Part shown: positions 1 through 35,807 of the stretch, in pieces
Position numbering within the stretch: the first letter of the stretch is position 1
Layout: each line of letters starts with the position of its first letter
IMG/VR virus record: IMGVR_UViG_3300032893_000011
Span: 1-64,000 of that record
Direction: 5' to 3' (one strand)
From: a virus
DNA: 64,000 bases
Notes under the pieces: generated by a model
Told to the model about the DNA's origin: nothing
The model's database searches: none
What the model saw: the letters and a program-made list of their open reading frames with translations, nothing else
Made by a program: the position numbers and the translations under genes

Positions 1-2
1 GG

Positions 3-1346: not shown

Positions 1347-1349
1347 CCC

Positions 1350-4751: not shown

Positions 4752-4975
4752 CCGCCGCCAAAAGGGTCCTAGCCGTACTCACCGGCCTGCCCTGCGACAA
4801 CACCTGGTGCAACCACCCCGTCGCCTACACCGTCAACTGGCACGGCTGCCACCACCAACTCCTATGCGGCCCCTGCTGGGACAAAACCGCCAAAGTCCTC
4901 GAACACTACGGCCAATGCCCCTGGTGCCACACCATCTACCTCCCCGAGCACCTGGTCAACGCCGAAAAGCTATGA
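4727..4975 (+). CDS. Zinc-ribbon-like small protein, 82 aa
   Basis: Cysteines and histidines are arranged as CDNTWCNH, CHHQLLCGPCW and CPWCH, a pattern expected for a small treble-clef or zinc-ribbon fold. A short helix leads in. The stop overlaps the start of the VirB6-like gene (CTATGA). Metal binding is inferred from spacing; the target is unknown. Confidence 0.58.
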   Translation: MPMPDPDLTAAKRVLAVLTGLPCDNTWCNHPVAYTVNWHGCHHQLLCGPCWDKTAKVLEHYGQCPWCHTIYLPEHLVNAEKL

Positions 4976-6996: not shown

Positions 6997-7008
6997 AGGG
7001 ATGATTCG

Positions 7009-7098
7009 ATGAGTGAAGAAAGCCTGCTGAAAACACGGCTCACACAATCTGCCCTTGATTTCGAGGACGTAGGGACCGAGCCGCCCGACCACCGTTAA
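7009..7098 (+). CDS. Small protein, 29 aa
   Basis: An ATG at 7009 has an AAAGGG eight bases upstream and encodes 29 mostly polar residues beginning MSEESLLKTRL. Its TAA stop lies within a CGTTAACG site. Called on the ribosome site and spacing; no function recognised. Confidence 0.42.
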   Translation: MSEESLLKTRLTQSALDFEDVGTEPPDHR

Positions 7099-7135
7099 CG
7101 ACACACCCCGCCGCAAACAGGGCCCGCCGCAACCA

Positions 7136-7157
7136 CGGCGTTATCCTGAGAACGCCG
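7136..7157 (+). promoter_or_regulatory. Hairpin with embedded -10-like hexamer before the 7174 gene
   Basis: CGGCGTT and AACGCCG form a perfect 7-bp stem around an 8-nt loop. TATCCT at 7142-7147 overlaps the loop and matches TANNNT. It may be a terminator for the conjugation operon, a promoter region, or both; there is no U-tract, which weakens the terminator reading. Confidence 0.3.
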
Positions 7158-7173
7158 AAGAAGCGAGACCCCC

Positions 7174-7653
7174 GTGTTCCTCACGCGCCTGCTGCGGGCA
7201 CGCCAACCCGACCCCGAACCGCCTGTGACGCCCAACTTCGACGCCCCGGGGCTCACCCACCACTGGCAGCTGGTCGAGCGCCACGAAATCAGCAGCGACC
7301 TGGCCGACGACCTGCCCGAGCACGAGAAGGCCGCCATCATCTCCGACGCCCGCCTAGCCGCCGCCGAGTGGGCCGCCCGCGAGGGTGTCGGCGTGACCCA
7401 CGTCGAAGCGTTCAAACGCCGCCTGCAGGTCGGCATCCGCTTCGAGCTGACCGTCGCCAAAGCGGTCGCCAACCCCGCCTGGGACGAGTTCGAGTGGGTG
7501 TGGTCGTCGCGATGGCGCGACTGGCAGCGCCGACTGGGCGCGCTGCGCCGCTACGAGAAGCACGGCCGCGCCCATCCCATCCGGGCCCTGCCCGGCGGTG
7601 CCATGGTGATACCGCTGCACCAACGCCACCAACACGAAAGCGACCCCACCTAG
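7174..7653 (+). CDS. Hypothetical protein, 159 aa
   Basis: It starts at GTG 7174 and gives a mostly helical, charged protein with a Trp-rich segment (WDEFEWVWSSRWRDWQ) and a basic end. It is the first gene after the hairpin. I do not recognise a family. Confidence 0.58.
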   Translation: MFLTRLLRARQPDPEPPVTPNFDAPGLTHHWQLVERHEISSDLADDLPEHEKAAIISDARLAAAEWAAREGVGVTHVEAFKRRLQVGIRFELTVAKAVANPAWDEFEWVWSSRWRDWQRRLGALRRYEKHGRAHPIRALPGGAMVIPLHQRHQHESDPT

Positions 7654-7829
7654 TGGGCGCGGCACCGCAAATGGACCTAGAGGAGCTGGCCGCCCTTTTG
7701 GGGGAGCACGCGCTCGCCGTCTACTCCTGGGGGCCGGAAGGTTGCCGATGCCAAGAATGGGACGGCGACAGCGCTGATCACCCGCGGCACCAGGCGGAGA
7801 TGATTATCGCCAGGTGCGGCAACGGGTAG
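7653..7829 (+). CDS. Hypothetical small acidic protein, 58 aa
   Basis: GTG 7653 overlaps the previous stop (TAGTG); ATG 7671 would give 52 residues. The product has a helical N-terminus (MDLEELAALLGEHALAVYSW) and two cysteines. Unknown function. Confidence 0.48.
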   Translation: MGAAPQMDLEELAALLGEHALAVYSWGPEGCRCQEWDGDSADHPRHQAEMIIARCGNG

Positions 7830-7842
7830 CTACCGCCGCCGC

Positions 7843-7848
7843 TAACAT
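7843..7848 (+). promoter_or_regulatory. Leaderless-type promoter TAACAT
   Basis: TAACAT is followed by seven bases and then GTG 7856. This places the expected transcription start at the start codon, and it decides the start of the glycosyltransferase. Confidence 0.5.
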
Positions 7849-7855
7849 CGACCCC

Positions 7856-8512
7856 GTGATCGGGGTCGCGATATCCACCTGGCGCCGCCCGGACACCCTC
7901 GCGCTGGCCCTGAACGAGTGGGCGCGGCGCCTCGCCGGGGTGTCCCTGCTAGTCGTCAACCACGACGAGCAGGGCCGCGGCGTCGCCGAAACCAAAAACG
8001 CCGGGCTGGCCGCCCTCATGGCCGATCCCCGAATCACCGACCTGTTCTTGGCTGATGATGATGTGTCTCCCATCGCCGACGACTGGGCCCGCCCCTACGT
8101 CCAATCCCCCCACCCCCACCTGATGCACTGCTGGGGAGCCAACCGCTACGAACGCGAAATCGACGGCCACACCATCTGGTCGTGGCCCCGCGGGGTGCTC
8201 CTGTACGCCAGGAGGGCGGTCGTCGAGCGCGTCGGCGGCATGCGCCCCGACTTCGGCCCGGTGGGCGGAGAGCACGTCGAATGGTCGCGCCGCGTCCACA
8301 ACTGCGGGTTCACCCCCCACCCGTTCATGGACGTCGCCGGATCCAACCGGCTGTGGTGCTACGACACCACGGCACCGACCACCCTGCCGAAAACCCGCTA
8401 CACCGACCGCCGCTGGAAAACACGCCGCCAACGCCTCCTGGAGTCCTATCGGCACTCCACCGAACACGTCGCTTTGCCCCTGCCCGCCCATCAGTTAACG
8501 TCACCGCTGTGA
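7856..8512 (+). CDS. Family 2-like glycosyltransferase
   Basis: From GTG 7856 the product (218 aa) starts IGVAISTWRRPDTL, a GT-A opening. It continues with KNAGLAALM and LFLADDDVSP, in which the acidic run is the DxD-type metal and nucleotide-sugar site, and then VGGMRPDFGPVGGEHVEWSRR, the acceptor/catalytic segment. GTG 7814 is an alternative start inside the previous gene, but the -10 hexamer supports 7856. The donor and acceptor cannot be told. It is one of about seven glycosyltransferase-like genes here, which suggests glycosylation of virion proteins, host glycans or modified DNA. Confidence 0.75.
   Translation: MIGVAISTWRRPDTLALALNEWARRLAGVSLLVVNHDEQGRGVAETKNAGLAALMADPRITDLFLADDDVSPIADDWARPYVQSPHPHLMHCWGANRYEREIDGHTIWSWPRGVLLYARRAVVERVGGMRPDFGPVGGEHVEWSRRVHNCGFTPHPFMDVAGSNRLWCYDTTAPTTLPKTRYTDRRWKTRRQRLLESYRHSTEHVALPLPAHQLTSPL
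8496..8501 (+). promoter_or_regulatory. Leaderless-type promoter TAACGT overlapping a GTTAACG site
   Basis: TAACGT plus a 7-nt spacer leads to GTG 8509. The hexamer overlaps AGTTAACG (8493-8500), so a protein that binds this palindrome would cover the promoter. Confidence 0.48.
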
Positions 8513-9046: not shown

Positions 9047-10624
9047 ATGGGATTCGGCATCATCGGCACCGCCCACCTGGGCGCGCCGCGGCGCGTGCAC
9101 GGCGACTACGACTACCTCGTCACCGGCGGCATGGGCTTCATCGGCCGCCACACCATCGCCGAGCTGCGCCGCCAACACCCGCAGGCCCGCATCGTCAGCC
9201 TCGACAACCTCGCCACCGCGCAGCAGGACCGCACCGACCCGTTAACAGAGTTCGTGGCCGGCGACGTCGCCGACACGTCACTGGTCAACCACCTCGTCAG
9301 CAGATGCAAAACCGCCGTCATCCACCTCGCCGCCGACTCGCGGGTGCTGCCGTCCCTGCACGACCCCGCCAAAGTCCTCGACACCGCCCGAACAAACATC
9401 ATCGGCACCGCCAACATCCTCGCGGCGATGACCAAAACCATCGACCCGCTCACCCTCGTCTACGCCGGGTCGTCCACCGCCTACGGCGACACCAGCGTCC
9501 CGCAAACCGAGACGGACCTGCCCAGCGTCAAAAGCCCCTACGCGGCGACGAAACTGGCCGGCGAGCTGCTCATCAGATCGTTCGCGGTGACATTCGGGCT
9601 CGACGCCGTGGTGCTGCGCTACTTCCAGGTGTACGGGCCCGGCCAACCCACCGAAGGCGCCTACGCCCTGGTCACCGGCGTGTTCATGCGCCAGTACGCC
9701 GCCGGGCAACCGTTAACGATAGAAGGCGACGGCACCCAGACCCGCGACTTCGTCCACGTCGCCGACGTGGCCCGCGCCAACGTCGCCGCCCTCGGGTTGC
9801 GCAGCAGCGGCGGGCTGCCCATCAACATCGGCTCCGGGCAGATGCACTCCGTCGCCGAACTGGCCGACCTGATCTCCCTCAACCAGGTCCACGTCCCCGC
9901 CCGCCGCATCGACCTGGCCGCCACCTGCGCCGACATCACCGCCGCTAAGAGCCTGCTCGGGTGGGAACCCGAAATCAAGTTCGCCGACGGGATACACGCG
10001 ATGCTGGCCACGCTGGGCGCCCAGCGGCGCGAGGAGACCAGCGGCCACGACATGCGCCCCGGCCCCTACCTGGCGCCCAAACCCGACCCGGCCGACCCGT
10101 GCCACCGCGGCCAGTGCTACAGCCTCCTACGCCACTGCATAGAGCTGTGCGAACCCGGCTACGGCCTGGAGTTTGGCGTGCAGACCGGGCACTCGCTGGA
10201 GCTGATCGCCCGCCGCCTGTACGGGGTCGGGTTCGACAGCTTCAACGGCCTCCCCGAGCCGTGGGGCCCCTACCCGAAAGGCATGTTCGCCCACCACCCG
10301 CCCGCGATCCCCAACACGCGGATCGTCGTGGGATGGTTCGCCGACACGCTGCCCACGTTCGACTTCACAACCGTGCAGCCGCTGCGCCTCATCCACATCG
10401 ACTGCGACCTGTACAGCTCCACGAAAACCGTGCTTGAGCACCTCGGCCCGCACCTGGCGCCCGGCACGATCCTGGTGTTCGACGAATACCTGTACGACTG
10501 GCCGCCCAACGAGGCCCGCGGCGGCGACGAGCAACGCGCCTGGCGCGACTTCACCCAAACCCACCCCGTGCGCTGGAAGGTGATCGGCCACGCCGCAGGG
10601 GCATGGGCCATACAGGTCGCCTAA
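9047..10624 (+). CDS. NAD-dependent sugar epimerase fused to a TylF-like O-methyltransferase
   Basis: Residues 1-330 are an extended short-chain dehydrogenase. The nucleotide-binding glycine motif TGGMGFIG lies at 26-33 and the catalytic SPYAATK at about 163-169, as in UDP-glucose 4-epimerase-type enzymes. Residues about 345-525 match TylF/macrocin O-methyltransferase-like proteins: EFGVQTGHSLELIA (SAM loop), FDSFNGLPE, and HIDCDLYSSTKTVLE with the metal-binding acidic residues. The expected roles are nucleotide-sugar interconversion and methylation of a sugar hydroxyl. The fusion would couple making and capping of a sugar. It sits among glycosyltransferases and a second methyltransferase. 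Confidence 0.85.
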   Translation: MGFGIIGTAHLGAPRRVHGDYDYLVTGGMGFIGRHTIAELRRQHPQARIVSLDNLATAQQDRTDPLTEFVAGDVADTSLVNHLVSRCKTAVIHLAADSRVLPSLHDPAKVLDTARTNIIGTANILAAMTKTIDPLTLVYAGSSTAYGDTSVPQTETDLPSVKSPYAATKLAGELLIRSFAVTFGLDAVVLRYFQVYGPGQPTEGAYALVTGVFMRQYAAGQPLTIEGDGTQTRDFVHVADVARANVAALGLRSSGGLPINIGSGQMHSVAELADLISLNQVHVPARRIDLAATCADITAAKSLLGWEPEIKFADGIHAMLATLGAQRREETSGHDMRPGPYLAPKPDPADPCHRGQCYSLLRHCIELCEPGYGLEFGVQTGHSLELIARRLYGVGFDSFNGLPEPWGPYPKGMFAHHPPAIPNTRIVVGWFADTLPTFDFTTVQPLRLIHIDCDLYSSTKTVLEHLGPHLAPGTILVFDEYLYDWPPNEARGGDEQRAWRDFTQTHPVRWKVIGHAAGAWAIQVA

Positions 10625-17212: not shown

Positions 17213-18217
17213 TCACCTCGTTGCGTGGCGGGCGGTCGGCGTGTGCGCTGTCGGCACCAGCCGGCCGTGGCTGATGTGCGGCCCCAGGTTCGGTGTCAGC
17301 TGCGAGTAGCCCGCGTCGACCACCGGCTTGAGCGCACTGTTGAGGCCGTTGTAGACCTTCGGCGGCAGCACACCCTTGATCGGGGACAGGATCGGCAGAT
17401 CCTGTGTGGGCACCATGTAGGTGGTGGTCACCCCACCCTTGGCGTTGACGGTTCGGCTCATCTGAACCGCGTCCGCCGGGCTCGACAACGCCGCCTGGGT
17501 GTGCAGCGTCTCACTGGTGCCCGGCACCTTCAGCAGCGCGCCCATGACCGCATTGACATCAGCCGGCAAGTCCCACGGCCGATCGGGGAAATTCGACCAG
17601 CCGTCGTACTGCTTGTACACCAGCGTGATGCTGTACGGGCTGTCGGTCGGTATCTGCCCGACCGTGTAACCCAGCACCGGGATGCGGGTACCCACGGGGA
17701 ACAACGACGCGACGCCCTCGTCCGGGTCGGCGAACAAGTAGAAACTCAGCCGGCCCGGGGACGGCGGGGCGGCGCTGTCGTCGAGGGTGACAATCTCACG
17801 CTCGATGAGCAGCGTGCCCTCCGACTCCCCGCTGACCACCACCGGGTCGCCGGCGTTGATCGCGGACATGATGGCGCCGTTCAACATCGGCAGGCCGACC
17901 GCGATGGACTGGTCCCCGGTCAGCCCGGGGGATTGCAGCGTGCCCCAAGCCGCGCCGGCCTGCGCCGGCCAGTACACCACGTTGCCGGGCGGTGTGGGCC
18001 CGACCCAGTTCTGCCCGGTCTGCCGGGCGTGTTGCTCGTAGAAGGCCTCCCCGTTGCTGCCGAGGATTTTGGCCACTAGCGGGCTCTTGGGCACCGACGC
18101 GCCGGGCGCGTCGATGCGAACCGTGTCAGCAGCGAACACTGGCGCGGAAGCGCCCACGGCCGCCGCCAGGGCGACACCCGCGACCGCGACCGCTTTAGCT
18201 GTCCGTGTTTTCCTCAT
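17213..18217 (-). CDS. Secreted PE-PPE-domain serine hydrolase
   Basis: ATG 18217 has a strong ribosome site (GGAGGAGAAGG) and opens on a signal peptide (TAKAVAVAGVALAAAVGASA, then PVFA). The mature part is an alpha/beta hydrolase of the PE-PPE type, a domain found almost only in mycobacteria. The nucleophile elbow is GESEG in PVVVSGESEGTLL, followed by the domain's typical SFYLFADPDEGVASLFPVGTR region. The family hydrolyses or transfers acyl chains on surface lipids. In a phage it could modify the host envelope or exclude other phages, by inference. The same frame stays open upstream to 18394. Confidence 0.82.
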   Translation of the reverse strand: MRKTRTAKAVAVAGVALAAAVGASAPVFAADTVRIDAPGASVPKSPLVAKILGSNGEAFYEQHARQTGQNWVGPTPPGNVVYWPAQAGAAWGTLQSPGLTGDQSIAVGLPMLNGAIMSAINAGDPVVVSGESEGTLLIEREIVTLDDSAAPPSPGRLSFYLFADPDEGVASLFPVGTRIPVLGYTVGQIPTDSPYSITLVYKQYDGWSNFPDRPWDLPADVNAVMGALLKVPGTSETLHTQAALSSPADAVQMSRTVNAKGGVTTTYMVPTQDLPILSPIKGVLPPKVYNGLNSALKPVVDAGYSQLTPNLGPHISHGRLVPTAHTPTARHATR

Positions 18218-18394
18218 GGTCCTTCTCCTCCCTCTGGCGATTCGCCTGGCGTCCTCGCCCAACTCGCCCCGCCGCGCCGCTTTCACAATCGCGCGGGCCG
18301 CTGCTGGGCTGGTCTTAATGAGGGCGCGTGCCTCGGCTATCAGCCGGCGAAGCTCAACCTCAGTGCTACTGATTGGCGTACGGGTGGTGGTCAT
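18218..18394 (-). other. In-frame 59-codon N-terminal extension of the PE-PPE gene
   Basis: An ATG at 18394, preceded by GGAGGAGC, begins 59 helical, charged residues (VELRRLIAEARALIK) that run without a stop into the signal peptide. Two forms are therefore possible: a long one with an internal hydrophobic helix and a short secreted one. Which start is used cannot be told, as both ribosome sites are strong. Confidence 0.5.
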
Positions 18395-18584: not shown

Positions 18585-19349
18585 ATGGCGAGAACCGCCC
18601 CCAAACCCCCGAGCGGCCTGATCGACACGACCACCACCATCGCCCCCGACCAGCTGAACTACTACCACCGAAACGCCCGCCGCGGCGACGTCAACGCGAT
18701 CATGCGGTCCCTGCTGAAACATGCCCAGTACAAGCCGCTCACCGGCAACATCGGCACTTACACCGGACGGCCCAACGAGATCCTGGCCGGGAACCACACG
18801 CTGCGCGCGATCCGCCAGCTGGCCGCCGACGACCCGGCCGACCCGCGGTGGCAGTCAGTGAAGGTCCATTGGGGCGACTGGGACGACGACACCTGCCGCA
18901 CCATCAACCTCGCCGACAACCGCACCGCCGAACTCGGCGGCTACGACACCGCCGAGCTGGTCGCGCTGCTCAACGGCGTCGACGACACGGACCTGTCGAG
19001 CATCGGCTACACCGTCGAGGACGTATCAGATTTGCGGGCGTCTCTAGAGGAGCAGGACACGCCGATCGTCGATCAACGCCCACCGCGCCTCGGCGAAGAT
19101 GGGCTGATCGACAGCAACGACATCACCGAAAACAAGGAAGGCTACGCTGACGCGGCGAGCCGGCTGGTGGTGTTGGTGTATCCGATCCCGCAGTTCGTTT
19201 GGGCGCAGGAGCAGTTTGGGAAGTTCCGGGCGGACCGCGGGATAGACACCAACACGGAAGCTGTGTTGGCGCTCCTCGCGGATTACACCGGCGTGGCCCC
19301 GCCGGAGGCGGAGGGGTTCGAGCCCGCGGGGGTGGCTGTTGAGGGTTGA
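18585..19349 (+). CDS. ParB-like (ParB/sulfiredoxin fold) protein
   Basis: The 254-residue protein has the ParB-fold core: LNYYHRNARRGDVNAIMRSL, then NEILAGNHTLRAI (the GNHR-like box) and INLADNRTAELGGYD. In phages such proteins occur with DNA methylases and base-hypermodification genes, where the fold acts as a nuclease or NTP-dependent enzyme. It heads a run of five overlapping genes with dioxygenases and a kinase, so a role in DNA modification is inferred. A C-terminal 90-residue part is unassigned. Confidence 0.8.
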   Translation: MARTAPKPPSGLIDTTTTIAPDQLNYYHRNARRGDVNAIMRSLLKHAQYKPLTGNIGTYTGRPNEILAGNHTLRAIRQLAADDPADPRWQSVKVHWGDWDDDTCRTINLADNRTAELGGYDTAELVALLNGVDDTDLSSIGYTVEDVSDLRASLEEQDTPIVDQRPPRLGEDGLIDSNDITENKEGYADAASRLVVLVYPIPQFVWAQEQFGKFRADRGIDTNTEAVLALLADYTGVAPPEAEGFEPAGVAVEG

Positions 19350-20319
19350 CGCGGCGCGCCTGCTGACCCGCGAGCAAGCCACCGAGCTTGTCGGGCTGAA
19401 ACCGGCTGTTATGACACCGAACGTGGACGCGCCTGCGTTTGTGCACGACGCCGACACCGGCGAGCTGATCCTGGCGTATCTGCCGCTGGAGGATCCGGGG
19501 CCGCTGCGGCGGGCGATGCTGACGGTGGACTGCTCGTCGGGTGTGCAACGCAACCGCAACTACCGGTCGCAGTCGCGCACATTCGGATACGCGCCGCGTC
19601 GGCCGGTGTTGCGCCGCGAAGGCTGCAGCCACACGTCGATCTGCATTGAGCAGCCCGACGTTGAACAAGTCCTGGAGAACTACGCAGACCAGCTGGGCCG
19701 GACCTTCAACAGTTTCGCGCCCGAGGTGGTCGAGGCTAACCGCGTCACCTTGGGTGACGTGCTGCCGCAGTGGCGGCTGGGGAAGGAGAAGCTGTGGACG
19801 TCGGGGGTGATCAACAACACCGCCGCCCTGCCCTATCATCGGGACGGTTACAACTTCCCCACCTGGTCGGCGATGTCCGTCATCCGCAGGGGCGTCCGCG
19901 GCGGTCACCTGCACGTCCCCGAATATGGTGTGGTGCTGCCGTGCTCTGACGCGACCGTCGTGTTCTTTGAAGGTTTCAGGCACGTTCACGGCGTCACCCC
20001 GATCGTGCGCGTGAAGAAGGGCGAAGGGTATCGGATCAGCGTCGTGTATTACGCCCTGCGGGGCATGAAGAACTGCCGCGAAGCCGCCGAAGAGACAGTG
20101 TTGGCCCGCCAACGACGTACCGAACGCGAGGTCGAGATGGCTAAACGGCTGGCCGCCGGCGAAACTGGCATCCCTCAATCAATAGGCGGCCGCATAGACC
20201 CTCGCAAGTTGGATAGACGTGTCTCCTCCGTTAATTGGCGGTTCAATTCCGAGTCGCCGCCGCCGAAGGCCCGGGCAGCCAAGCCGAAAGACGACGATGA
20301 GGGGTCTCGTGCTGATTGA
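19339..20319 (+). CDS. TET/JBP-like 2-oxoglutarate/Fe(II) dioxygenase
   Basis: TTG 19339 overlaps the ParB-like gene. The iron-binding HxD is LPYHRDGYNF (H167, D169), the distal His lies in RHVHGVTPI at 215-217 and the 2-oxoglutarate Arg in EGYRISVVYYA at about 232. The GGHLHVP strand fits the TET/JBP group. This family oxidises the methyl group of thymine or 5-methylcytosine in DNA. A C5 cytosine methyltransferase at 31459 could supply 5-methylcytosine; oxidation of thymine is the alternative. A basic C-terminal tail may bind DNA. Confidence 0.8.
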   Translation: MRVDAARLLTREQATELVGLKPAVMTPNVDAPAFVHDADTGELILAYLPLEDPGPLRRAMLTVDCSSGVQRNRNYRSQSRTFGYAPRRPVLRREGCSHTSICIEQPDVEQVLENYADQLGRTFNSFAPEVVEANRVTLGDVLPQWRLGKEKLWTSGVINNTAALPYHRDGYNFPTWSAMSVIRRGVRGGHLHVPEYGVVLPCSDATVVFFEGFRHVHGVTPIVRVKKGEGYRISVVYYALRGMKNCREAAEETVLARQRRTEREVEMAKRLAAGETGIPQSIGGRIDPRKLDRRVSSVNWRFNSESPPPKARAAKPKDDDEGSRAD

Positions 20320-21187
20320 CCAGCGGCGGCTGGCTGATTTGACGGAGTTCGCCCGCGTCGAAGCCGAAAGCCGCGACGTGGAGCCGTGGGCTGACATCAT
20401 CGCCGCCGTCGAGCTGCCTCGCGAGCAGCGCACCTGGCTGATGACCTTGTACAACACGTTCGACGACCTGCATTCGGCGTGGTCGTGTATGCGACGCTGG
20501 CCCACCCCCGCCCGGTGGGGCGCGGCGCCCGACCGCCACGAGGCGGCGCGATTCAACTGCACGCAGGAGCGCCGCAACCTGCGCGGCGGCCGGGTCCTGC
20601 AACGCTTCGCCTCCTACGCGGCAATCCTCACCGGCCGCACCGAGGAGCAGTGGATGACCGTCGGGCTGGGAGCCGACCCGGGCCGCAACTTCACGCGCCT
20701 CACCACGCGGATGCGCACCGTGTGGGGGGTGGGCCGCCAATCAGCTTTCGAGTGGGCCGAATTCGCCGGCAAAGTCCTCGGCCTACCAGCCGACGCCGCT
20801 GACGGCCAACTATGGGAGTCGTCAGGGCCCCGGCGTTGTTTGGAGCGGATCTTTCACCTCGATCAGCCGAGCCCCGCGCAGCTGCACGAGGCGGCCAACG
20901 TGTGCCGCGAATGGCTGCGGCAGGAGGGGGTGCCGCTGGCGTGGGTCGACTTCGAAACCGTGATCTGCGACTACAACGTGGCCCGTGACGGGCGTTACTA
21001 CCCGGGCCGGCACCTCGCCGCCCTGCGGGAGGAGATCAACACGCTACCCGACGCCGCCGACAGGGCCCTACTCGGCGCGGCGTGGGACTCTTTCGTGCCT
21101 GAGCCGTGGCGCTCCATCCGGCCCGGCATCGACCCCGCGAAGATGAATGTTTATCGCGACTCGGGGAAGATTATTCAATGGCCGTAG
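20297..21187 (+). CDS. Probable amino acid:DNA transferase / pyrophosphorylase-like protein
   Basis: A mostly helical 296-residue protein with LMTLYNTFDDLHSAWSCM near the start, ERRNLRGGRVLQRF in the middle and FETVICDYN late. The size, helical fold and place between a TET/JBP-like oxygenase and a P-loop kinase match the alpha-glutamyl/putrescinyl-thymine pyrophosphorylase (aGPT-PPlase, AADT) proteins of phages with hypermodified bases. Those replace a pyrophosphate on a hydroxymethyl base with an amino acid. I assign it from context and overall resemblance, not from a proven motif. GTG 20309 is a possible alternative start. Confidence 0.6.
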   Translation: MRGLVLIDQRRLADLTEFARVEAESRDVEPWADIIAAVELPREQRTWLMTLYNTFDDLHSAWSCMRRWPTPARWGAAPDRHEAARFNCTQERRNLRGGRVLQRFASYAAILTGRTEEQWMTVGLGADPGRNFTRLTTRMRTVWGVGRQSAFEWAEFAGKVLGLPADAADGQLWESSGPRRCLERIFHLDQPSPAQLHEAANVCREWLRQEGVPLAWVDFETVICDYNVARDGRYYPGRHLAALREEINTLPDAADRALLGAAWDSFVPEPWRSIRPGIDPAKMNVYRDSGKIIQWP

Positions 21188-22257
21188 AAGACCCCGCCGC
21201 GACAGCCCGGTTCCTGGGCGCCTACTGCAAACAGTTCAACGCTGGGGCGTTCGCCCACCCGACCGGCAAAGAACTCGCCGCCCACCCCGAGTGGATAACA
21301 GACGAGCAAATCGGCGACGAACGCGCTGTGGTCATCAGCCGCGTCTTAAGTCGCGACTCGGTGCGCACCGACTTCACCGGCAGGAAATTCGCGATCCCCG
21401 CCAGCCAGCGAATCGCCACCCTAGTCGCGCACACACCCAACCTGCTGCCGCAGCTGAACCGCTACGCCTACATCATGACCTACGCCGAGGACCGCCAGCT
21501 GAACGCCCTATGCGCCACCCTCGGCAGGCGCATCGTGGGCACTCGGATCACCGCAGCCGCCGAAATCATCCACTGCTGGGGGCCGCCCACCGACCAAGCC
21601 CACTACGCAGCCTGGGACCGTGCCACCGTCACCGAAGTCGGCCACACCGACCCAGCGACCGTCTTTGGGTTCGTCACCGAAGCCGCCGCCGCCACCGGAT
21701 GGGACGACGACTACCCCTACTACAGCGACGGCGGCTGGAGCGCGGTATGCCTCAAAGGGTTCTGGCCTGACGACCCCAGCCGCGGTGTCAAACCCTCCGA
21801 GATGCCCAAACCGTGGAAAGCCGAGCACCGCAGCGATTTGACTCGCACCGCCCAATGGACAACCCTGGCCCGCCGAACCCCGTCGTTGACGGCGTTCGTG
21901 GAGTCGGTGCCGTGGTGGCGGCGCACCGAGCGGGTTCGGCTGCTGAAGATGAAAGCGGGATCGCGGCTCGCGCGTCACAGCGACATCACCGACCGCGACA
22001 GCGGCACCCGCGACGGCCAGATTGTCCGGTTCCACATCCCGCTTCTCACCCACCCGGACTGCCTGCTGCACACCTGGGACCTCGACGGGCTCCGCCGCGA
22101 CCACCACCTACAGGCGGGCCGCTGGTACTACCTCGACGCCCGCAAACCCCACGCCGTCACCAACCGCGGGCCCGTCGACCGCATCCACCTCGTCGTGGAC
22201 GTGCTCTGCGACGTCGACGTGCGCCGCCACATCGCGCAGGCCCGCCAATGCGTCTGA
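21178..22257 (+). CDS. Aspartyl/asparaginyl beta-hydroxylase-like dioxygenase
   Basis: ATG 21178 lies within the end of the previous gene. The C-terminal third is a double-stranded beta-helix dioxygenase: RLARHSDITDRDSG at about 264 supplies HxD, and KPHAVTNRGPVDRIHLVVDV at about 323 supplies the distal His and the Arg for 2-oxoglutarate, as in Asp/Asn hydroxylases. The first 180 residues are a separate, unrecognised domain. In this operon it may hydroxylate the amino-acid adduct on the modified base, which is inference. Confidence 0.74.
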   Translation: MAVEDPAATARFLGAYCKQFNAGAFAHPTGKELAAHPEWITDEQIGDERAVVISRVLSRDSVRTDFTGRKFAIPASQRIATLVAHTPNLLPQLNRYAYIMTYAEDRQLNALCATLGRRIVGTRITAAAEIIHCWGPPTDQAHYAAWDRATVTEVGHTDPATVFGFVTEAAAATGWDDDYPYYSDGGWSAVCLKGFWPDDPSRGVKPSEMPKPWKAEHRSDLTRTAQWTTLARRTPSLTAFVESVPWWRRTERVRLLKMKAGSRLARHSDITDRDSGTRDGQIVRFHIPLLTHPDCLLHTWDLDGLRRDHHLQAGRWYYLDARKPHAVTNRGPVDRIHLVVDVLCDVDVRRHIAQARQCV

Positions 22258-22793
22258 TATACCTCGCCGGTGGGCCCGGCTCAGGCAAATCCACCCTGAT
22301 GGCGGCCCTGACCAGCCGATACGATCGGATGCCGTGCTACCGCGACAAACCTCCGCATGATGTGCTCGTCGACCGGGGCACCGGCGCGGCGGTGGGCGCG
22401 GAGATAGGGCGCCGCCGCGCCAGCTTCGGCGGCACCGACGCCCTAGCCTCCACAATCATCAACACCGCCGTCCCATGGGTGGAGTCGAAGCCCTACCCGC
22501 TGATCCTGGCTGAGGGCGCCCGCCTGGCGTGTCAACGATTCCTGCTCGCCGCCACCGCCACCTACGATGTGACGTTGGCGCTGCTCGACCACCCCCAAGC
22601 CGAAGGGTGGCGCGTCGCGCGCTCCCAAGCCAACAACCGGTTCCAAAACGAGGCCTGGGTGCGGGGCCGAATCAGCGCCAGCCGCAACCTCGCCGACAAG
22701 CTCGACGGCCGCGAGCGGATCACGGTCCTGCGCGGACACCCCGACGACCTGCAACCAATCCTGGCTGGACTACTCGCCGATGAGCACCACTGA
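22248..22793 (+). CDS. P-loop kinase, probable hydroxymethyl-base DNA kinase
   Basis: The 181-residue protein begins MRLIYLAGGPGSGKST, a Walker A at residues 8-16. Later come LILAEGARLACQRF and a helical region with two Arg (RVARSQANNRF) like a lid. Phage 5-hydroxymethyl-base DNA kinases have this size and plan. The start overlaps the dioxygenase and the stop overlaps the terminase, so it is the last member of the modification operon. Phosphorylation of the base hydroxyl is the inferred step before the transferase. Confidence 0.76.
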   Translation: MRLIYLAGGPGSGKSTLMAALTSRYDRMPCYRDKPPHDVLVDRGTGAAVGAEIGRRRASFGGTDALASTIINTAVPWVESKPYPLILAEGARLACQRFLLAATATYDVTLALLDHPQAEGWRVARSQANNRFQNEAWVRGRISASRNLADKLDGRERITVLRGHPDDLQPILAGLLADEHH

Positions 22794-24534: not shown

Positions 24535-26151
24535 GTGGCCGCCCCGAAGCTCTACCACTGGCGGCGTGTCCGCAACTTCGGCGACGAACTCTCCGCATGG
24601 ATCATGGCCCGCCTGAACGTCGCCTACGACGCCGCCGAGCCCCGCGACGCGAACCTGGTCATCTGCGGGTCGGTGCTCGAACACCTGCACCCCGGCTGGG
24701 TCGGCACCGTCTGCGGCGCCGGCCTGCTGCGCGAAACGTCCACGGCGGACCTGTCGCTGGCGCGGGTGGTGGCGCTGCGCGGCAAACTGACCGCCGCCCG
24801 CACCCGCGGCCTACCCAAACAGCCCGTCCTGGGCGACCCCGGCCTGCTCGTGTCGCGCTGGGCGCCGCAGATCGTCGCCAAACACGACCTCGGCGTGGTG
24901 CCCCACTGGTCCGACGACAGCCTCGCGTCCCGGTTCCCCTACGGGCTGCTGATCGACCCGCGCCGGGCGCCCGGCGACGTGATCCGCGACATCGGCGCCT
25001 GCAAACGCGTCGTGTCCTCCAGCCTGCACGGCCTGATCGTCGCCGACAGCTTCGGCATCCCGCGGCGGGCCGAGCTGTTCCCCGACGCCGGCAAACCCTA
25101 CGAGGGCGGCGACTTCAAGTACCGCGACTACGCCTCGATCTACGACACCCACCCGCACTGGGGAGAGTTCTGGCGCGCCCCCTACACCGTCGTCGAGGCC
25201 GTCAAGAACCGGCTGCGCGACGCCCTGGCCGAGGCGACGAACACCCCCGTCCCCCGCATCGACATCACCCCCCCGCCCGACGTGCCGCCCCGAACCCGCG
25301 GGCGACGTCCCCTGCTGAGCCTGCTCGTCCCGTTCCACCACGACCACACCGACAGCGAGCACCGCGCCCGCGTCTGGGCGTGGCTAGCCCGCCACTGGCA
25401 CGCGCAGCTACCCGACGCCGAAATCCTCATCGGCCACTGCCCCACTCTGCCCTACAGCAAGTGCCGCGCCGTCAACGAGGCCGCCGGCCGCGCCCGCGGC
25501 AAAGTGCTGTGCATCCTGGACGCCGACGCCTACCCCGACGCAAAAGTCATCCGACGCTGCGCCGCCGACATCATCGCCGCCACCACCGCCGGGCGCAGGC
25601 TGTGGCACGTCCCCTATCGCCGCCTGTACCGCCTGTCCCGCGACTACACCGAGACACTGCTCGAAACCGACCCGACCCGGCCGTACGCGATGCCCTCACC
25701 GCCCAACGGCGCGTGGCTGGAACCCGACAGCCGCAACACCGTCGCCCACGGCTACCTCTACGGCGCCATGTGCATGATCATGCCCACCGAGGCCTTCTTC
25801 ACCGCCGGGGGCATGGACCCCCGCATGGCCGGATGGGGCGGGGAGGACATCAGCTTCCTGCGCTCGCTCGACACCCTGTACGGCCTGCACGAGGTCGTCG
25901 ACGCGGACATCTGCCACCTGTGGCACCTGCGGCCCGGCAAGGACTGGAAAACGCGGACATGGCAGGGCCAGGCGGCGGGCCTGGCCAACTCGCGGCTGGC
26001 GCAGCGCTACGCGGCGGCCACGGGCGAGCCGGGGTTCATGCGCCAGCTCGTCGCCGAGTACGCCCAACCCGCCCCGCTGTCGATGGAGTACCTGCGGCCG
26101 GCTAGAACGAGCCAGGCGGGTGCCCGGCGAAAACGAGCGCCAAGTCCTTGA
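24535..26151 (+). CDS. Polysaccharide pyruvyltransferase-like domain fused to a GT2 glycosyltransferase
   Basis: Residues 1-235 match polysaccharide pyruvyl transferases: RRVRNFGDELSAWIM, VICGSVLEH, LGDPGLLVSRW and SSSLHGLIVADSFGIP, with the conserved His. Residues about 260-520 are a GT-A enzyme: LLSLLVPFHHDH, CILDADAYPDA (DxD) and GGMDPRMAGWGGEDISFL as the catalytic region. One protein would thus both transfer a sugar and add a pyruvate ketal, or the first domain has another role. The start is GTG 24535. A small opposite-strand gene overlaps the last 50 nt. Confidence 0.8.
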   Translation: MAAPKLYHWRRVRNFGDELSAWIMARLNVAYDAAEPRDANLVICGSVLEHLHPGWVGTVCGAGLLRETSTADLSLARVVALRGKLTAARTRGLPKQPVLGDPGLLVSRWAPQIVAKHDLGVVPHWSDDSLASRFPYGLLIDPRRAPGDVIRDIGACKRVVSSSLHGLIVADSFGIPRRAELFPDAGKPYEGGDFKYRDYASIYDTHPHWGEFWRAPYTVVEAVKNRLRDALAEATNTPVPRIDITPPPDVPPRTRGRRPLLSLLVPFHHDHTDSEHRARVWAWLARHWHAQLPDAEILIGHCPTLPYSKCRAVNEAAGRARGKVLCILDADAYPDAKVIRRCAADIIAATTAGRRLWHVPYRRLYRLSRDYTETLLETDPTRPYAMPSPPNGAWLEPDSRNTVAHGYLYGAMCMIMPTEAFFTAGGMDPRMAGWGGEDISFLRSLDTLYGLHEVVDADICHLWHLRPGKDWKTRTWQGQAAGLANSRLAQRYAAATGEPGFMRQLVAEYAQPAPLSMEYLRPARTSQAGARRKRAPSP

Positions 26152-31265: not shown

Positions 31266-31462
31266 ACCTCGATGAGCTGCTAGTGCAGATCGACACCGCG
31301 GTCTACGAACTTGAGTCTGAGGCTGTCAAGGCCGCCATTGAGGCGGATCGCTTGCGCGACGAGAACGCTGAACTACACCTGCGCGTCGCTGAACTCACCA
31401 CCGAACGCGACGACGCCCGAGCCCGAGCAGCGCACTACGCCCACGACAACCGCATGCTATGA
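31262..31462 (+). CDS. Coiled-coil protein, 66 aa
   Basis: GTG 31262. Almost entirely a heptad-patterned helix (LLVQIDTAVYELESEAVKAA, RLRDENAELHLRVAELTTER). Its stop overlaps the methyltransferase ATG. May be a partner or control protein; unknown. Confidence 0.6.
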   Translation: MNLDELLVQIDTAVYELESEAVKAAIEADRLRDENAELHLRVAELTTERDDARARAAHYAHDNRML

Positions 31463-32820
31463 GAATCGGTTCCCTGTGCTCCGGCGCCGGTGGCCTTGAC
31501 CTCGCCGTTGAAACCGTTTTCAACGCCACAACCGCCTGGCACGCCGAAACCGACCCCGCCGCCGCCAAAGTCCTCACCCACCGCTGGCCTGACACCCCCA
31601 ACCACGGCGACATCACCACAGCCGATTGGAGCACCGTTGAACCCATCGACATCCTCTGCGCGGGATGGCCCTGCCAACCCTGGTCCGCAGCCGGTCAACG
31701 CAGAGGCGCAGCCGACCACCGAGCCATCTGGCCGGCCATCACGCGCGCCGTTCGCCTACTACGACCACGATGGGCGGTGCTGGAAAACGTTCCAGGAATC
31801 TTTGTTCTCGGGGAGTTTGCCCGAACAGTCGGTGACCTGGCCGCGCTCGGGTATGACACGCAATGGGTATGCCTACGAGCTTCCGATGTCAGTGCCCCCC
31901 ACCAGCGCGAACGAGTGTTCATCTTGGCTGCCGACGCCGCGCAGCACGAGAGATGGATCAACGACGGAGACGAGTTACGCCTTGGGCGGCGAACGCGACA
32001 ACAGCAACCGCACACAGGGCGAAGTCCTGCTTCCGACTCCTCGTGCGACGGACGGCACGAAGGGCGGCCCGAACCAGCACGGCTCATCGGGGGACCTGAT
32101 GCTGCCCTCAGCGGTGCTGGACCTGTAAACCTGCTGCCGACACCCCTTGCCCGCGACTTCAAAGGCCACAGCCCCGCTGACATGAACCGCCGCAACCCGA
32201 ATATGTCAGCCATCACAGACCTACTGCCGACACCCGCCGTAAACGACATTGGCGACAACAAGACCATTGAGTGGTGGGACGACTGGACCACCCGCATGAA
32301 AAACCAGCACAGCAACGGCAACGGCCACGGCCCATCACTAGAGATCGAAGTGCAACGCCCACTGCTACCCACGCCGCGTAGCAGCGACTGTTTCGGTGCT
32401 GGCGTCCACGGTGACGGCGGCATGGACCTACGCACCACCGTGCCACTACTCGCCACTCCGAGCACCGCTGACGGTAATGGTGGTCACCTGAACCGATCCG
32501 GTGACCGCAAAAACGAACTACTGCTACCTGGCCAGGCCCGCGACATGGTGACCAGTTGGGGTAAGTATGAGCCCGCGATCCGCCGCTGGGAACAGCACAC
32601 CCGCCCCGCCCCACCACCCACCGAACCCAACACCAAAGGCAACCCCCGCCTATCCGCCGCGTTCAGTGAGTGGATGATGGGCTGGCCCGAAGGCTGGGTC
32701 ACCGCCGTCCCCGGTATCAGCCGCAGCGATGCCCTGCGCGTCATCGGCAACGGCGTCGTGGTTCAACAGACCACCGCAGCCCTGCAATGGCTCCTACACG
32801 CCACCCAGGTGACCGCATGA
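31459..32820 (+). CDS. C5 cytosine DNA methyltransferase
   Basis: Conserved blocks are in order: SLCSGAGGLDLA (SAM site), CAGWPCQPWS with catalytic C72, LENVPG at 109-113, and APHQRERVFIL (motif VIII). The C-terminal motifs IX-X region is GWPEGWVTAVPGISRSDALR followed by VIGNGVV. The long middle (about 160-370) holds LLPTP repeats and stands where the target-recognition domain lies. The enzyme would make 5-methylcytosine, a possible substrate of the TET/JBP-like enzyme at 19339. A second, recognisable frame overlaps codons about 97-223. Confidence 0.9.
   Translation: MRIGSLCSGAGGLDLAVETVFNATTAWHAETDPAAAKVLTHRWPDTPNHGDITTADWSTVEPIDILCAGWPCQPWSAAGQRRGAADHRAIWPAITRAVRLLRPRWAVLENVPGIFVLGEFARTVGDLAALGYDTQWVCLRASDVSAPHQRERVFILAADAAQHERWINDGDELRLGRRTRQQQPHTGRSPASDSSCDGRHEGRPEPARLIGGPDAALSGAGPVNLLPTPLARDFKGHSPADMNRRNPNMSAITDLLPTPAVNDIGDNKTIEWWDDWTTRMKNQHSNGNGHGPSLEIEVQRPLLPTPRSSDCFGAGVHGDGGMDLRTTVPLLATPSTADGNGGHLNRSGDRKNELLLPGQARDMVTSWGKYEPAIRRWEQHTRPAPPPTEPNTKGNPRLSAAFSEWMMGWPEGWVTAVPGISRSDALRVIGNGVVVQQTTAALQWLLHATQVTA
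31490..32128 (+). CDS. Overprinted ORF inside the methyltransferase gene
   Basis: In the frame one base ahead of the methyltransferase, codons from 31748 to 32128 encode PFAYYDHDGRCWKTFQESLF, SVTWPRSGMTRNGYAYELP and SSWLPTPRS, then LLPTPRATDGTKGGPNQHG. That string resembles a phage family with S-W-R/K-T-x-Q and TWPRSGMTRNG motifs often found beside Dcm genes. The stretch before 31748 is Pro/Thr-rich shadow. GTG 31490 is the formal start, but the real start is uncertain. Confidence 0.4.
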   Translation: MALTSPLKPFSTPQPPGTPKPTPPPPKSSPTAGLTPPTTATSPQPIGAPLNPSTSSARDGPANPGPQPVNAEAQPTTEPSGRPSRAPFAYYDHDGRCWKTFQESLFSGSLPEQSVTWPRSGMTRNGYAYELPMSVPPTSANECSSWLPTPRSTRDGSTTETSYALGGERDNSNRTQGEVLLPTPRATDGTKGGPNQHGSSGDLMLPSAVLDL

Positions 32821-33056: not shown

Positions 33057-35807
33057 GTGACGGTCCCCGCCCTGCGTGTCGTGCGCCGTCCCAAACGCGC
33101 CCACCGCCACCTGTCCCTGGTGGCCGCCAGCCAACCCATCGAAACCCCGCAACGCATATTCAGGACCACCGTCTCCGGGGTCGTCGCCGACGACGACTGG
33201 CAAACCGAGGCCTGGGACATGTACGACGCCGTCGGCGAGCTCCGCTACTACGTCGGCTGGCGCTCCTCATCGTGCTCACGGGTGCGCCTCATCGCCTCCG
33301 AGATCGACCCCGACACCGGCCGCCCCACCGGCACCTGCGACAACCTCGCCGCCGCCCAAGTCGTCAACGGCATCGCCGGTGGGCACCTCGGCCAAACCCA
33401 GCTCATCAAACGCGTCGTCGAATGCCTCACCGTGCCCGGAGAAGTGTGGGTGGGCATCATCCAACCCGGCGACGAGCCCGCGCAACGCTGGCTCGCCCTG
33501 TCGAAGGACGAGATCTTCAGAAACGGCGCCGGGGCGGAGATCGAGCTGCCCGACGGGTCGCGCCACACCCTGTCCATGCCCCGCGACTCGCTGATCCGCG
33601 TCTGGATCCCCCGAGCCCGGCGGGCGTCGCAGCCCGACTCGCCGGTCCGGGCCTGCCTCGGGTCGCTGCACGAGATACACCGCACCACGAAAACCATAGC
33701 CAACGCCTCCAAGTCCCGCCTCATCGGCAACGGCATCGTGTTCGTGCCGCAGGAGATGTCCCTGCCGCCGATGAACACCCCCCTGGCCGCCAACCAGCTC
33801 GGGCCGCCCACCCCGACGATGGACGGCACGTCGGCGGTGCAGCAGCTGCAGGAGCTGCTGTGGCAGGTGGCGCAGACGGCCTACGACGACGAAGACTCGA
33901 TGGCTGCCCTGATACCGATGTTCGCCACCGTGCCCGGCGACCAGATCAAAAACGTGCAGCACCTGCAGTTCGAGAACAACATCACCGACGTCGCGATCAA
34001 GACCCGCAACGACGCAATCGCCAGGCTCGCGATGGGATTGGACGTGAGCCCAGAAAGGCTCCTCGGTTTGGGGCGAAGCTCAAACCATTGGTGCAAAGAC
34101 GACCAGACTGAAATTCTGACACAACGCGGCTGGTTACGGCAGGATCAGCTGCGAATCGGCGACATGGCGCTGACGCTACAGCAAAGCGGGTTGAGCGAGT
34201 GGCAGCCAGTGCTGGACATCTACCGTGCTGACGTGATTGATGAGCCGATGCTGTCAATGGAGGCGGCGTCTCATTCATCGTTGTCCACGGCAGGGCATCG
34301 CTGGCTGGTGACTCACGTTAGCAACGGGAAATGGCGATGGACGACCAGCGGTCAGGGTTTCGCCAAGGCGGACCGCATACCCGCCGCTGCAAGATGTGTG
34401 TCGTTACCTTCTGGGCCGAAGTACTCGGATAGTTTCGTTCGGCTCGCAGCTGCTTACATGTCGGACGGCTCGCGGTTGCGCTATGAGTCTGGAACAGAAT
34501 TCGTTCGTATCGTCAAGTTCGATGCCGATGAAATCATTGCTTTGCGAGCGGTGTGCCGTGAAGTGTTCGGGCGTGACGTCTCAGAGCGCCATCACCCGAC
34601 CAGAACACGCGCCGGGCTGGCTTTCGTGCTGCACGCCGATGAGTCACAAGCGCTGTTTGACATCACCAGCGAGCATAAGGCGCTCAAACCCGAGTTCATT
34701 CTCACGTTAACGGAAGCGCAGCTGCACCTGTTCCTTGATGCGTTGATTGAGCTTGGCGACGGTGTCGCTTTATCGCATGGTGCTCGGACCTTCTTCCAGG
34801 TGGAGCCGTCACGACTGGACGCCATCGAGATGGCAGCGATCCTCGCTGGCTATCGCTGCACCCGCGGGCAACGTAATCAGCAGACCGGTTTCGGCACGAC
34901 TCCGCTCCACTGGCTACGAGCTGGAACGGCTCGTAAATGGTTTGCTCCCTATGTGGCCGAAAAGTCCTGGCAACGTTACTCCGGGGTCGTCTGGTGTCCA
35001 ACCACCGAGAACGGGACGTGGTTCGCGCGGCGAGATGGAAAGGTCTGCGTCAGCGGAAATTCGGCCTGGCAGTTAGCTGACGAGGACGTGCAGCTGCACA
35101 TTTGCCCCGTGATGGAGTTGCTGTGCGCGGCGTTCAACGAGCGCATCGTCGGCCCTGTGTTTCAGAGGATGGGCATCGACCCCACCCGCTACATGCTGTG
35201 GTACGACGCCACCGGGCTGACCGCAGACCCCGACAAAACCAACAACGCCACAGCGGCGTTCGACCGGGGGGCGATCACCGCCGACGCGTTGCGCTCCTAC
35301 CTGCAGCTCGGCGACGACACCGGCTACGACCTGTCCACCCTCGAAGGGTGGAAGGTGTGGGCGCGCGACCACGTCAGCAAGGACCCCACCCTGCTGTCGG
35401 TCCCGCAGCTCGTCGCGCTGCTGGGCCCCGACGTGGTGAAGGTGACCACACCGCCCGCCCCGCCACCCGAGCAGCCCGCAGTGCCCGCCGGGCAGCGCCC
35501 GCCCGCGCTGCCGTCCGCGAAACCCAAACCCGCAGCCCCCGCGCAGCAGGAGCCGCAAACCGAGGAGGAGGAGGCGGCCCCGGCCGCACAGGTCCGCGAC
35601 GACGTGCACATGGGCATCGTGGACCTGATGGTGTCACGGGCACTCGGCCTCGCGTCGCGGCGGCGTCGCGGCACCGGCGACCGGTGGGACGAAGCCCTCG
35701 AAGACGAAGTGCTGGGTCTGCTGAACATCGACGGCGAGGACGTGCGCGCGGCGGTTCGCCGCAGCGTGCGCCACAAACTCGCCGCGCGCAACGGGGAAGG
35801 AAGCTGA
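33057..35807 (+). CDS. Portal protein interrupted by an intein
   Basis: The 916-residue precursor contains a 323-residue intein at 346-668; the spliced portal would be 593 residues. The exteins read RLLGLGRSSNHW then SAWQLADEDVQLH, which rejoin to NHWSAWQ, a conserved portal sequence of actinophages. The N-terminal part has the EVWVGI and DGTSAVQQLQELLWQVA segments of the portal stem and wing. The C-terminal 120 residues are Pro/Ala/Glu-rich, then helical. The portal forms the ring through which DNA is packaged by the terminase. Confidence 0.92.
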   Translation: MTVPALRVVRRPKRAHRHLSLVAASQPIETPQRIFRTTVSGVVADDDWQTEAWDMYDAVGELRYYVGWRSSSCSRVRLIASEIDPDTGRPTGTCDNLAAAQVVNGIAGGHLGQTQLIKRVVECLTVPGEVWVGIIQPGDEPAQRWLALSKDEIFRNGAGAEIELPDGSRHTLSMPRDSLIRVWIPRARRASQPDSPVRACLGSLHEIHRTTKTIANASKSRLIGNGIVFVPQEMSLPPMNTPLAANQLGPPTPTMDGTSAVQQLQELLWQVAQTAYDDEDSMAALIPMFATVPGDQIKNVQHLQFENNITDVAIKTRNDAIARLAMGLDVSPERLLGLGRSSNHWCKDDQTEILTQRGWLRQDQLRIGDMALTLQQSGLSEWQPVLDIYRADVIDEPMLSMEAASHSSLSTAGHRWLVTHVSNGKWRWTTSGQGFAKADRIPAAARCVSLPSGPKYSDSFVRLAAAYMSDGSRLRYESGTEFVRIVKFDADEIIALRAVCREVFGRDVSERHHPTRTRAGLAFVLHADESQALFDITSEHKALKPEFILTLTEAQLHLFLDALIELGDGVALSHGARTFFQVEPSRLDAIEMAAILAGYRCTRGQRNQQTGFGTTPLHWLRAGTARKWFAPYVAEKSWQRYSGVVWCPTTENGTWFARRDGKVCVSGNSAWQLADEDVQLHICPVMELLCAAFNERIVGPVFQRMGIDPTRYMLWYDATGLTADPDKTNNATAAFDRGAITADALRSYLQLGDDTGYDLSTLEGWKVWARDHVSKDPTLLSVPQLVALLGPDVVKVTTPPAPPPEQPAVPAGQRPPALPSAKPKPAAPAQQEPQTEEEEAAPAAQVRDDVHMGIVDLMVSRALGLASRRRRGTGDRWDEALEDEVLGLLNIDGEDVRAAVRRSVRHKLAARNGEGS
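34092..35060 (+). other. Intein in the portal protein, with sense LAGLIDADG-like domain
   Basis: It starts at C346 (CKDDQTEILTQRGW, block A) and has a block-B-like AASHSSLSTAGHRWLVTH. The end is WFARRDGKVCVSGN before S669. The penultimate residue is Gly rather than the usual His. The middle holds FVRLAAAYMSDGS and LFLDALIELGDGV, two LAGLIDADG-like helices, so this intein encodes its endonuclease in frame. The site is the conserved NHW/SAWQ portal motif, a typical choice for an intein. Confidence 0.9.

Follow-up and report, generated by a model that had tools for sequence, protein, structure and literature searches.

What would lead a phage to encode two iron-dependent dioxygenases, a transferase and a kinase in one tightly packed group of genes? 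The question is raised by positions 18585-22793 of the window, by which we mean the whole stretch of 64,000 nucleotides analysed here, the first 64 kb of IMG/VR virus record IMGVR_UViG_3300032893_000011 (113,740 bases; the record may be incomplete). Five plus-strand reading frames lie between these positions, each overlapping the next by 10 to 23 bases. The answer that we favour, with moderate confidence, is that the operon would carry out a post-replicative hypermodification of thymine, and that the amino acid of the resulting adduct would then be hydroxylated by the second dioxygenase. A preliminary description of this DNA, made from its letters, had claimed five overlapping genes of the families given below, and the reading frames and the Pfam and PHROG matches agree with it; its assignment of the third gene as a transferase is likewise borne out by a profile match.

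The first gene (18585-19349, +) encodes a ParB-like protein of the ParB/Srx fold (254 aa), which matches phrog_6392 (1.9e-86), gives no Pfam match at E<=1, and probably has a role in DNA binding or targeting. The second (19339-20319, +), read from a TTG codon, encodes a TET/JBP-family 2-oxoglutarate (2OG)-Fe(II) dioxygenase of 326 aa that matches PF12851 (1.3e-8); the score is 34.6 bits by hmmscan, slightly below the cut-off of 34.9, and 36.4 bits, above the cut-off, in the genome search. The HxD pair H167/D169 (codon 19837), H217, and R232, which make up the iron triad and the 2OG-binding arginine, are present in this protein, and these positions are conserved wherever one of the 41 homologues has a residue at them (numbering in the homologue alignment is +4 relative to these residues). 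The name "queuine tRNA-ribosyltransferase", which PHROG 6059 and RefSeq would give to the second gene, was rejected, as both the Pfam match and the residues are those of TET/JBP; TET/JBP proteins, such as gp2 of the Mycobacterium phage LilMcDreamy and its relatives (PHROG 6059), carry that label in RefSeq records and in PHROGs. The third gene (20297-21187, +) encodes an amino acid:DNA transferase (AADT) of 296 aa (PF18724, 5.1e-13), which belongs to a group called clade A below. The fourth (21178-22257, +) encodes the second dioxygenase, an Asp_Arg_Hydrox protein of 359 aa (PF05118, 1.2e-9), and the fifth (22248-22793, +) a P-loop nucleotide kinase of the Ploopntkinase3 family (181 aa; PF18751, 1.8e-63) with the Walker A motif GGPGSGKST at 22269. 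The gene for TerL starts at 22780, right after the kinase gene. Start codons of the five genes are the analyst's choice; ATG is seen at 20297, 21178, and 22248.

In the pathway that we propose, the TET/JBP enzyme would hydroxylate the 5-methyl group of thymine within DNA, converting it into the hydroxymethyl group of 5-hydroxymethyluracil (5hmU). The new hydroxyl would then be phosphorylated by the P-loop kinase, a step predicted to activate it for the AADT, and the AADT is predicted to displace this activated hydroxyl, replacing the phosphate group by an amino acid, joined through its amine or through another nucleophile. Finally, the second 2OG-Fe(II) enzyme would oxidise the adduct in its amino-acid part, hydroxylating it while on the base, so that the end product would be a hydroxyamino-acid-thymine base. 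A source of 5hmU, a kinase, and an AADT are the general mark of a thymidine hypermodification pathway, and all three occur together in this one overlapping operon if, as we infer, the 5hmU is produced by the TET enzyme. The chemical steps, the nature of the amino acid, and the site of the hydroxyl group are likewise deduced from the genes; what was computed is the gene content, the overlaps, the families, the intact dioxygenase residues, the linkage to an AADT clade, the mutual exclusion of two genes, and the replacement of two others at a locus designated L060. We know of no base of the hydroxyamino-acid-thymine class in DNA. Were the proposal true, DNA bases would include a new chemical class, and LilMcDreamy, a cultured phage of Mycobacterium smegmatis, is predicted to carry such a base.

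The second dioxygenase is a two-domain protein, with a GNAT-like domain at the N terminus (about residues 1-140) followed by the PF05118 hydroxylase domain (about residues 149-359). PF05118 is matched by 20 of its 21 homologues, and the residues for iron and 2OG (H267, D269, H325, and R335, with codons within 21976-22182) are invariant in 21 of 21. An AlphaFold2 model made with 21 sequences has a mean predicted local distance difference test (pLDDT) score of 92.5. When this model is compared by Foldseek with solved structures, L-proline cis-4-hydroxylase (4p7w, titled as L-proline-bound) is at the top (1.3e-11), and further matches include 7v4o, a hydroxylase from a nucleoside antibiotic pathway (4.7e-9), proline 3-hydroxylase, and human AspH; in a VIA structure comparison, the best 16 rows have Z values of 15.9-17.1 over 152-181 residues. 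Residues 1-150 were modelled separately (pLDDT 93.4). For this N-terminal domain, acetyltransferases or NatA fill the first five VIA rows (Z 9.6-9.7, root-mean-square deviation 2.8-3.7, 118-130 residues), though the best Foldseek E value is only 0.018. GNAT proteins have a coenzyme A loop motif, Q/R-x-x-G-x-G/A; since it is missing in 19 of the 21 N-terminal domains (the two matches sit at differing places), acetyl transfer by this domain is doubtful. In a tblastn search of 50,697 phage records with the second dioxygenase, LilMcDreamy is the sole phage matched (two records). When an alignment of three sequences was used to scan genome contigs from 84,980 species, the 39 pattern matches included no relative; a search of this pattern-based kind may miss distant ones. 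If the enzyme acts as predicted, it is a possible DNA-modifying hydroxylase reagent.

The link between this dioxygenase and the transferase emerges when related loci are compared. Loci with an AADT gene were taken from viral contigs by a search with the AADT (54 loci), from hydroxylase-based searches, and from named phages; they were scored with profile models, and merging those with 95% AADT identity left 48 groups. PF18724 is matched by 41 of 41 aligned AADT homologues. By identity to the AADT of the window, the groups fall into clade A (22 groups, 42-100%) and clade B (26 groups, 19-31%). The cut between them, 40% identity, was chosen after the gap (0.42 versus 0.31) was visible, and the same split is given by a maximum-likelihood tree, in which a branch of 1.32 changes per column, with 100/100 support, separates the two clades. 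This tree holds 41 of the 48 groups, with fragments or the most distant sequences omitted (L016, L032, L083, L084, L087, L089, and L091).

The two clades differ in their partner genes. A hydroxylase gene is present in 21 of the 22 clade-A groups, in each case directly after the AADT gene, and in none of the 26 clade-B groups; a gene for a flavin-type protein is present in 17 clade-B groups and in no clade-A group. Thus, hydroxylase and flavin-type genes are never found together (0/48 groups), and nine of the 26 clade-B groups have neither. The remaining genes are common to both clades: kinase, TET, and ParB-like genes are found in 21, 18, and 17 groups of clade A and in 23, 23, and 16 groups of clade B, respectively. 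Clade-A group L033 was reached only through the hydroxylase search, and without it the count of hydroxylase-bearing groups is 20 of 21. Four clade-A groups have no TET gene; the contigs of two (L032 and L013) start inside or just before the AADT gene, another (L058) is a 4-kb contig, and the last is L060. With gene starts taken from profile envelopes, the hydroxylase and AADT genes overlap or are at most 17 bases apart in 17 of 21 loci, and the hydroxylase and kinase genes overlap or are at most 10 bases apart in 19 of 21. When the hydroxylase is the query, 14 of 15 loci (not de-duplicated) have an AADT gene, and the contig of the 15th starts within the hydroxylase gene. The preliminary description had suggested that the second dioxygenase performs an extra hydroxylation of the adduct; its tie to the transferase (21/22 versus 0/26) is observed, and the hydroxylation itself stays a prediction. 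Two statistics are not counted as evidence. A Fisher test on the loci gives p of about 1e-12, but these loci are related by descent, and mirror-tree identities of the AADT with the hydroxylase, kinase, TET, and ParB proteins (Pearson 0.64-0.79, Spearman 0.08-0.50) do not single out the hydroxylase, which is not at the top. That the AADT clade predicts the tailoring enzyme is a simple rule by which amino-acid-type DNA modification could be read from genomes.

The flavin-type proteins of clade B indicate what kind of place the hydroxylase may occupy. A profile built from 11 of these 17 proteins matches PDB entries 8z2o and 8z79, named "flavin-dependent lyase", over nearly the full length (2.2e-10); the profile left out L002, L023, L024, L065, L069, and L080 (15-35% identity to its first row). 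The flavin-type protein of Kozie alone matches the same entries at 3.5e-4. The model used to search for these proteins was built from four dissimilar sequences, and in a Pfam scan of five flavin-type proteins, three had no match at 0.01. In 12 of 16 groups the gene order is AADT, flavin-type gene, kinase. From these arrangements, the hydroxylase would appear to fill the tailoring place that is held by the flavin-type enzyme in clade B. A profile of both AADT clades matches 25qc, an AADT (1.6e-20), and 8z2m, a glycinyltransferase (6.5e-13), and among clade-B AADTs the Reprobate/Phelemich type matches 8z2m at 0.0032; a profile of clade A by itself matches 25qc alone (2e-4) and does not reach 8z2m at E<=1. 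This failure to reach the glycinyltransferase, together with the distance between the clades, suggests that clade A uses a different amino acid. Entries 8z2m, 8z2o, and 8z79 are ones that we take, from the title only, to belong to Wen et al. 2024.

They represent the N-alpha-glycinyl-thymidine/5-aminomethyl-deoxyuridine pathway, with which the window shares the AADT family and the use of a tailoring enzyme. The window differs from this pathway in that a 2OG-Fe(II) hydroxylase replaces the flavin lyase, the AADT is of the other clade, and 5hmU probably comes from TET; those clade-B modules that include a flavin-type gene are likely a TET-fed version of the same route. In two other loci, L076 and L083, a weak radical SAM match follows the AADT (21.7 and 20.2 bits, below the Pfam cut-off of 29.5), and L076 also has a weak HMUDK match (0.0048). 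With hydroxylase, flavin-type, and weak radical SAM matches all lying beside AADTs, the AADT partner looks like an exchangeable tailoring enzyme, of which the hydroxylase is the clade-A form. A broader proposal, whose chances we regard as even, is that an undescribed branch extends across 21 phage groups, in which two iron dioxygenases would act on one base and a GNAT-like/hydroxylase fusion would lead to hydroxyamino-acid-thymine, while the tailoring enzymes (hydroxylase, flavin-type, radical SAM-like, and methyltransferase-like) would be exchangeable and matched to the AADT clade.

L060 bears on the identity of the modified base. In this locus, with its clade-A AADT, the profile models picked up no hydroxylase, no TET, and no kinase of the PF18751 type. 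One side of the AADT gene is occupied by a thymidylate-synthase-family protein (PF00303, 7.2e-21); on the other side lies a protein of 227 residues and then a 5-hydroxymethyldeoxyuridine (5-hmdU) DNA kinase (PF18748, 6.5e-9, above the cut-off). The 227-residue protein (L060:6858-7541) has no Pfam match and is methyltransferase-like by eye. Of the 11 records searched, that of L060 is the only one with PF00303 and the only one without TET. PF00303, which stands for the route by which a deoxyuridine monophosphate hydroxymethylase leads to premade 5-hmdU triphosphate, was found neither in the record of the window nor in eight complete named TET phages. The simplest reading is that TET and Ploopntkinase3 would do the same job as a hydroxymethylase together with a 5-hmdU kinase, which is to supply activated 5hmU. 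This exchange of TET and kinase for a thymidylate-synthase-family protein and a 5-hmdU kinase favours a thymine/uracil base.

Several observations weigh against the proposed pathway, and they are considered here together with the alternatives on which they bear. The flavin-type gene sits after the kinase in four of 16 groups, which is not the place of the hydroxylase. On the AADT tree, the label hydroxylase or flavin-type changes once (rows with neither are uncounted), so that the exclusion of one gene by the other is a single evolutionary event rather than many, kept since then across a deep clade. It is rather unlikely, in our judgement, that the second dioxygenase removes the amino acid by oxidative N-dealkylation. 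In that scheme the AADT would add glycine or another amino acid, the dioxygenase would hydroxylate the alpha carbon, and the carbinolamine would collapse to 5-aminomethyl-deoxyuridine, making the iron enzyme a substitute for the flavin-dependent lyase. The usual PF05118 chemistry leaves a stable hydroxyl, which counts against such a collapse, and the long branch between the clades is mildly unfavourable to it, as a distinct AADT would hardly be needed if the amino acid were removed afterwards; the absence of any group with both genes, the finding that in 12 of 16 groups the flavin-type gene separates the AADT gene from the kinase gene, and the lyase matches of the flavin-type profile are what one would expect from it. 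Comparable chemistry is known from tRNA, where, according to the portion of PMC3648344 available to us, the enzyme MnmC1 performs a flavin adenine dinucleotide-dependent Calpha-N oxidation of carboxymethylaminomethyl-uridine. The order of the last two steps could also be reversed, with the second dioxygenase hydroxylating a free amino acid that the AADT then moves to DNA. Among the closest solved structures to the hydroxylase are enzymes with free proline as substrate: L-proline cis-4-hydroxylase and proline 3-hydroxylase both use free amino acids, and this again speaks against hydroxylation on the base. In L060, a clade-A AADT occurs without any hydroxylase found in the locus; this is a further point against the pathway that we favour, but it also argues mildly against the reversed order, as the clade-A AADT is seemingly independent of a hydroxylated amino acid. 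Given, in addition, that at other loci the AADT has different apparent tailoring genes beside it, we regard prior hydroxylation as improbable.

The base and the kinase leave room for two other alternatives to the proposed pathway. The TET enzyme might act on 5-methylcytosine made by a C5 methyltransferase of the phage or host, so that cytosine rather than thymine would be decorated. The window phage does encode a C5-cytosine DNA methyltransferase (31459-32820, +; 453 aa, with PF00145 matched over the first 164 residues only), and among 10 further contigs there is a match above the cut-off in one and a weak match in another; these are counterpoints to a thymine target, and because of them 5-methylcytosine may be the TET substrate in the window phage and in such contigs. 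As a general substrate it is disfavoured, since none of nine complete TET-bearing named phages, LilMcDreamy included, has a C5 methyltransferase. The combination in L060 of a clade-A AADT with a thymidylate-synthase-family protein and a 5-hmdU kinase likewise speaks against cytosine, and of the alternatives this is the one to which we give the least credence. The kinase, for its part, might be a packaging or nucleotide kinase linked to the terminase, leaving base modification to TET, AADT, and hydroxylase only. Its family is indeed common in phages without TET, which weakens the case for the pathway: relatives of the kinase occur in 400 phage records versus 91 with TET matches (GenBank and RefSeq copies counted apart), so at least 309 of the 400 kinase records have no TET match, the PreQ0/DpdA phages Saguaro and Funsized among them. 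Moreover, a kinase with an intact Walker A motif is found directly upstream of TerL, with no TET in the stretch seen, in JacAttac, Saguaro, Funsized, and Vincenzo. Within the modules, 15 of 21 loci show an overlap of the kinase and hydroxylase genes, including loci without an adjoining terminase match, and in L060 it is a kinase of the HMUDK type that follows the AADT; we consider a role confined to the terminase rather unlikely. A last point against the pathway comes from the literature: in the parts of PMC11955845, PMC6449724, PMC7653180, PMC5977210, PMC12783734, PMC11946847, PMC11721090, and PMC7824862 that were accessible, no PF05118 hydroxylase appears in such a module.

Because the same kinase family is so widespread in phage records without TET, the kinase alone is not diagnostic, and it was rejected as proof of the pathway. 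PF18748 (HMUDK) is not among the 19 families that match the window kinase at E<=1, so the protein is filed as Ploopntkinase3. In JacAttac, where a Ploopntkinase3 gene with an intact Walker A motif lies directly before TerL (L027:1-567), no modification gene is present in 1-8000 or 44000-68311, and no TET in the whole record. The kinase and the terminase had both figured in the preliminary description. A kinase profile is matched, as it had anticipated, though not that of HMUDK, and the operon does lie beside the terminase, though this position is incidental: L008, an IMG/VR contig, has all five genes together with a terminase match about 7 kb away, and L039 has no terminase match in 13 kb, as judged with a model built from four terminases.

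The closest known counterpart of the operon is in LilMcDreamy (Bclasvirinae; 71,552 bp), whose gp1-gp5, located beside TerL, correspond to the five genes one by one and in order. Identities to the window proteins are 47% for ParB, 62% for TET, 73% for AADT, 60% for the hydroxylase, and 54% for the kinase. The LilMcDreamy genes are annotated as a ParB-like partition protein, a queuine tRNA-ribosyltransferase, two hypothetical proteins, and a terminase small subunit, respectively, and UniProt describes gp4 as a hydroxylase-domain protein. Rhodococcus phage Tonitrus encodes ParB, a TET-like protein, aGPT-Pplase2, a 5-hmU kinase, and a hypothetical protein, which the portion of PMC11955845 available to us presents as a possible thymidine hypermodification system. 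Tonitrus and the Gordonia Sourvirus phages resemble the window in having ParB-like, TET-like, AADT (annotated as aGPT-Pplase2), and P-loop kinase genes at the left end of the genome. Unlike the window, Tonitrus and Wooper have an extra gene after the kinase (with weak Rossmann-type Pfam matches only) and a clade-B AADT, and no hydroxylase is present in the stretches of them that were scanned. In phages M6, ViI, and PhiW-14, thymidine hypermodification involves 5-hmdU, a 5-hmdU DNA kinase, and transferases (PMC6449724, in the text available). These systems are like the proposed pathway in their sequence of a hydroxymethyl group, its phosphorylation, and then changes by transferases. They differ in that M6, ViI, and PhiW-14 replicate with a pool of 5-hmdU triphosphate, whereas in the window TET would oxidise thymine in DNA, and the kinase is of another Pfam family. 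Thus, TET-fed thymine hypermodification is known, and the close pairing of one AADT clade with a GNAT-like/hydroxylase fusion is a variant for which no description was found in those parts of the literature on such modules that were consulted.

Related left ends vary in their contents. In Bclasvirinae (L015-L021), the set of genes between ParB and the kinase/terminase differs from phage to phage: PreQ0/DpdA genes in Saguaro and Funsized; TET only in KayaCho; TET and AADT in JAMaL; TET, a TET-associated glycosyltransferase, and a PIG-L deacetylase in Acadian; TET, AADT, and a flavin-type gene in Phelemich; and a "carboxylate deaminase" in Vincenzo.

Elsewhere in the window, the gene at 24535-26151 (+), after the terminase, encodes a two-part protein with a polysaccharide pyruvyl transferase-like and a galactosyltransferase-like portion; neither the LilMcDreamy genome nor L008 gives a tblastn match to it, and it could decorate DNA, the virion, or the host surface. 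A nucleotide-sugar epimerase/dehydratase fused to a TylF-like methyltransferase is encoded at 9047-10624 (+). An intein splicing domain is present in the product of 35811-39962 (+), and by eye the reading frame at 33057-35807 (+) also seems to contain an intein-like insert, though no family matched there. On the opposite strand, the gene at 17213-18394 (-) encodes a PE-PPE domain protein (3.7e-49). This domain is known from mycobacteria, and its presence hints at a mycobacterial-type host.

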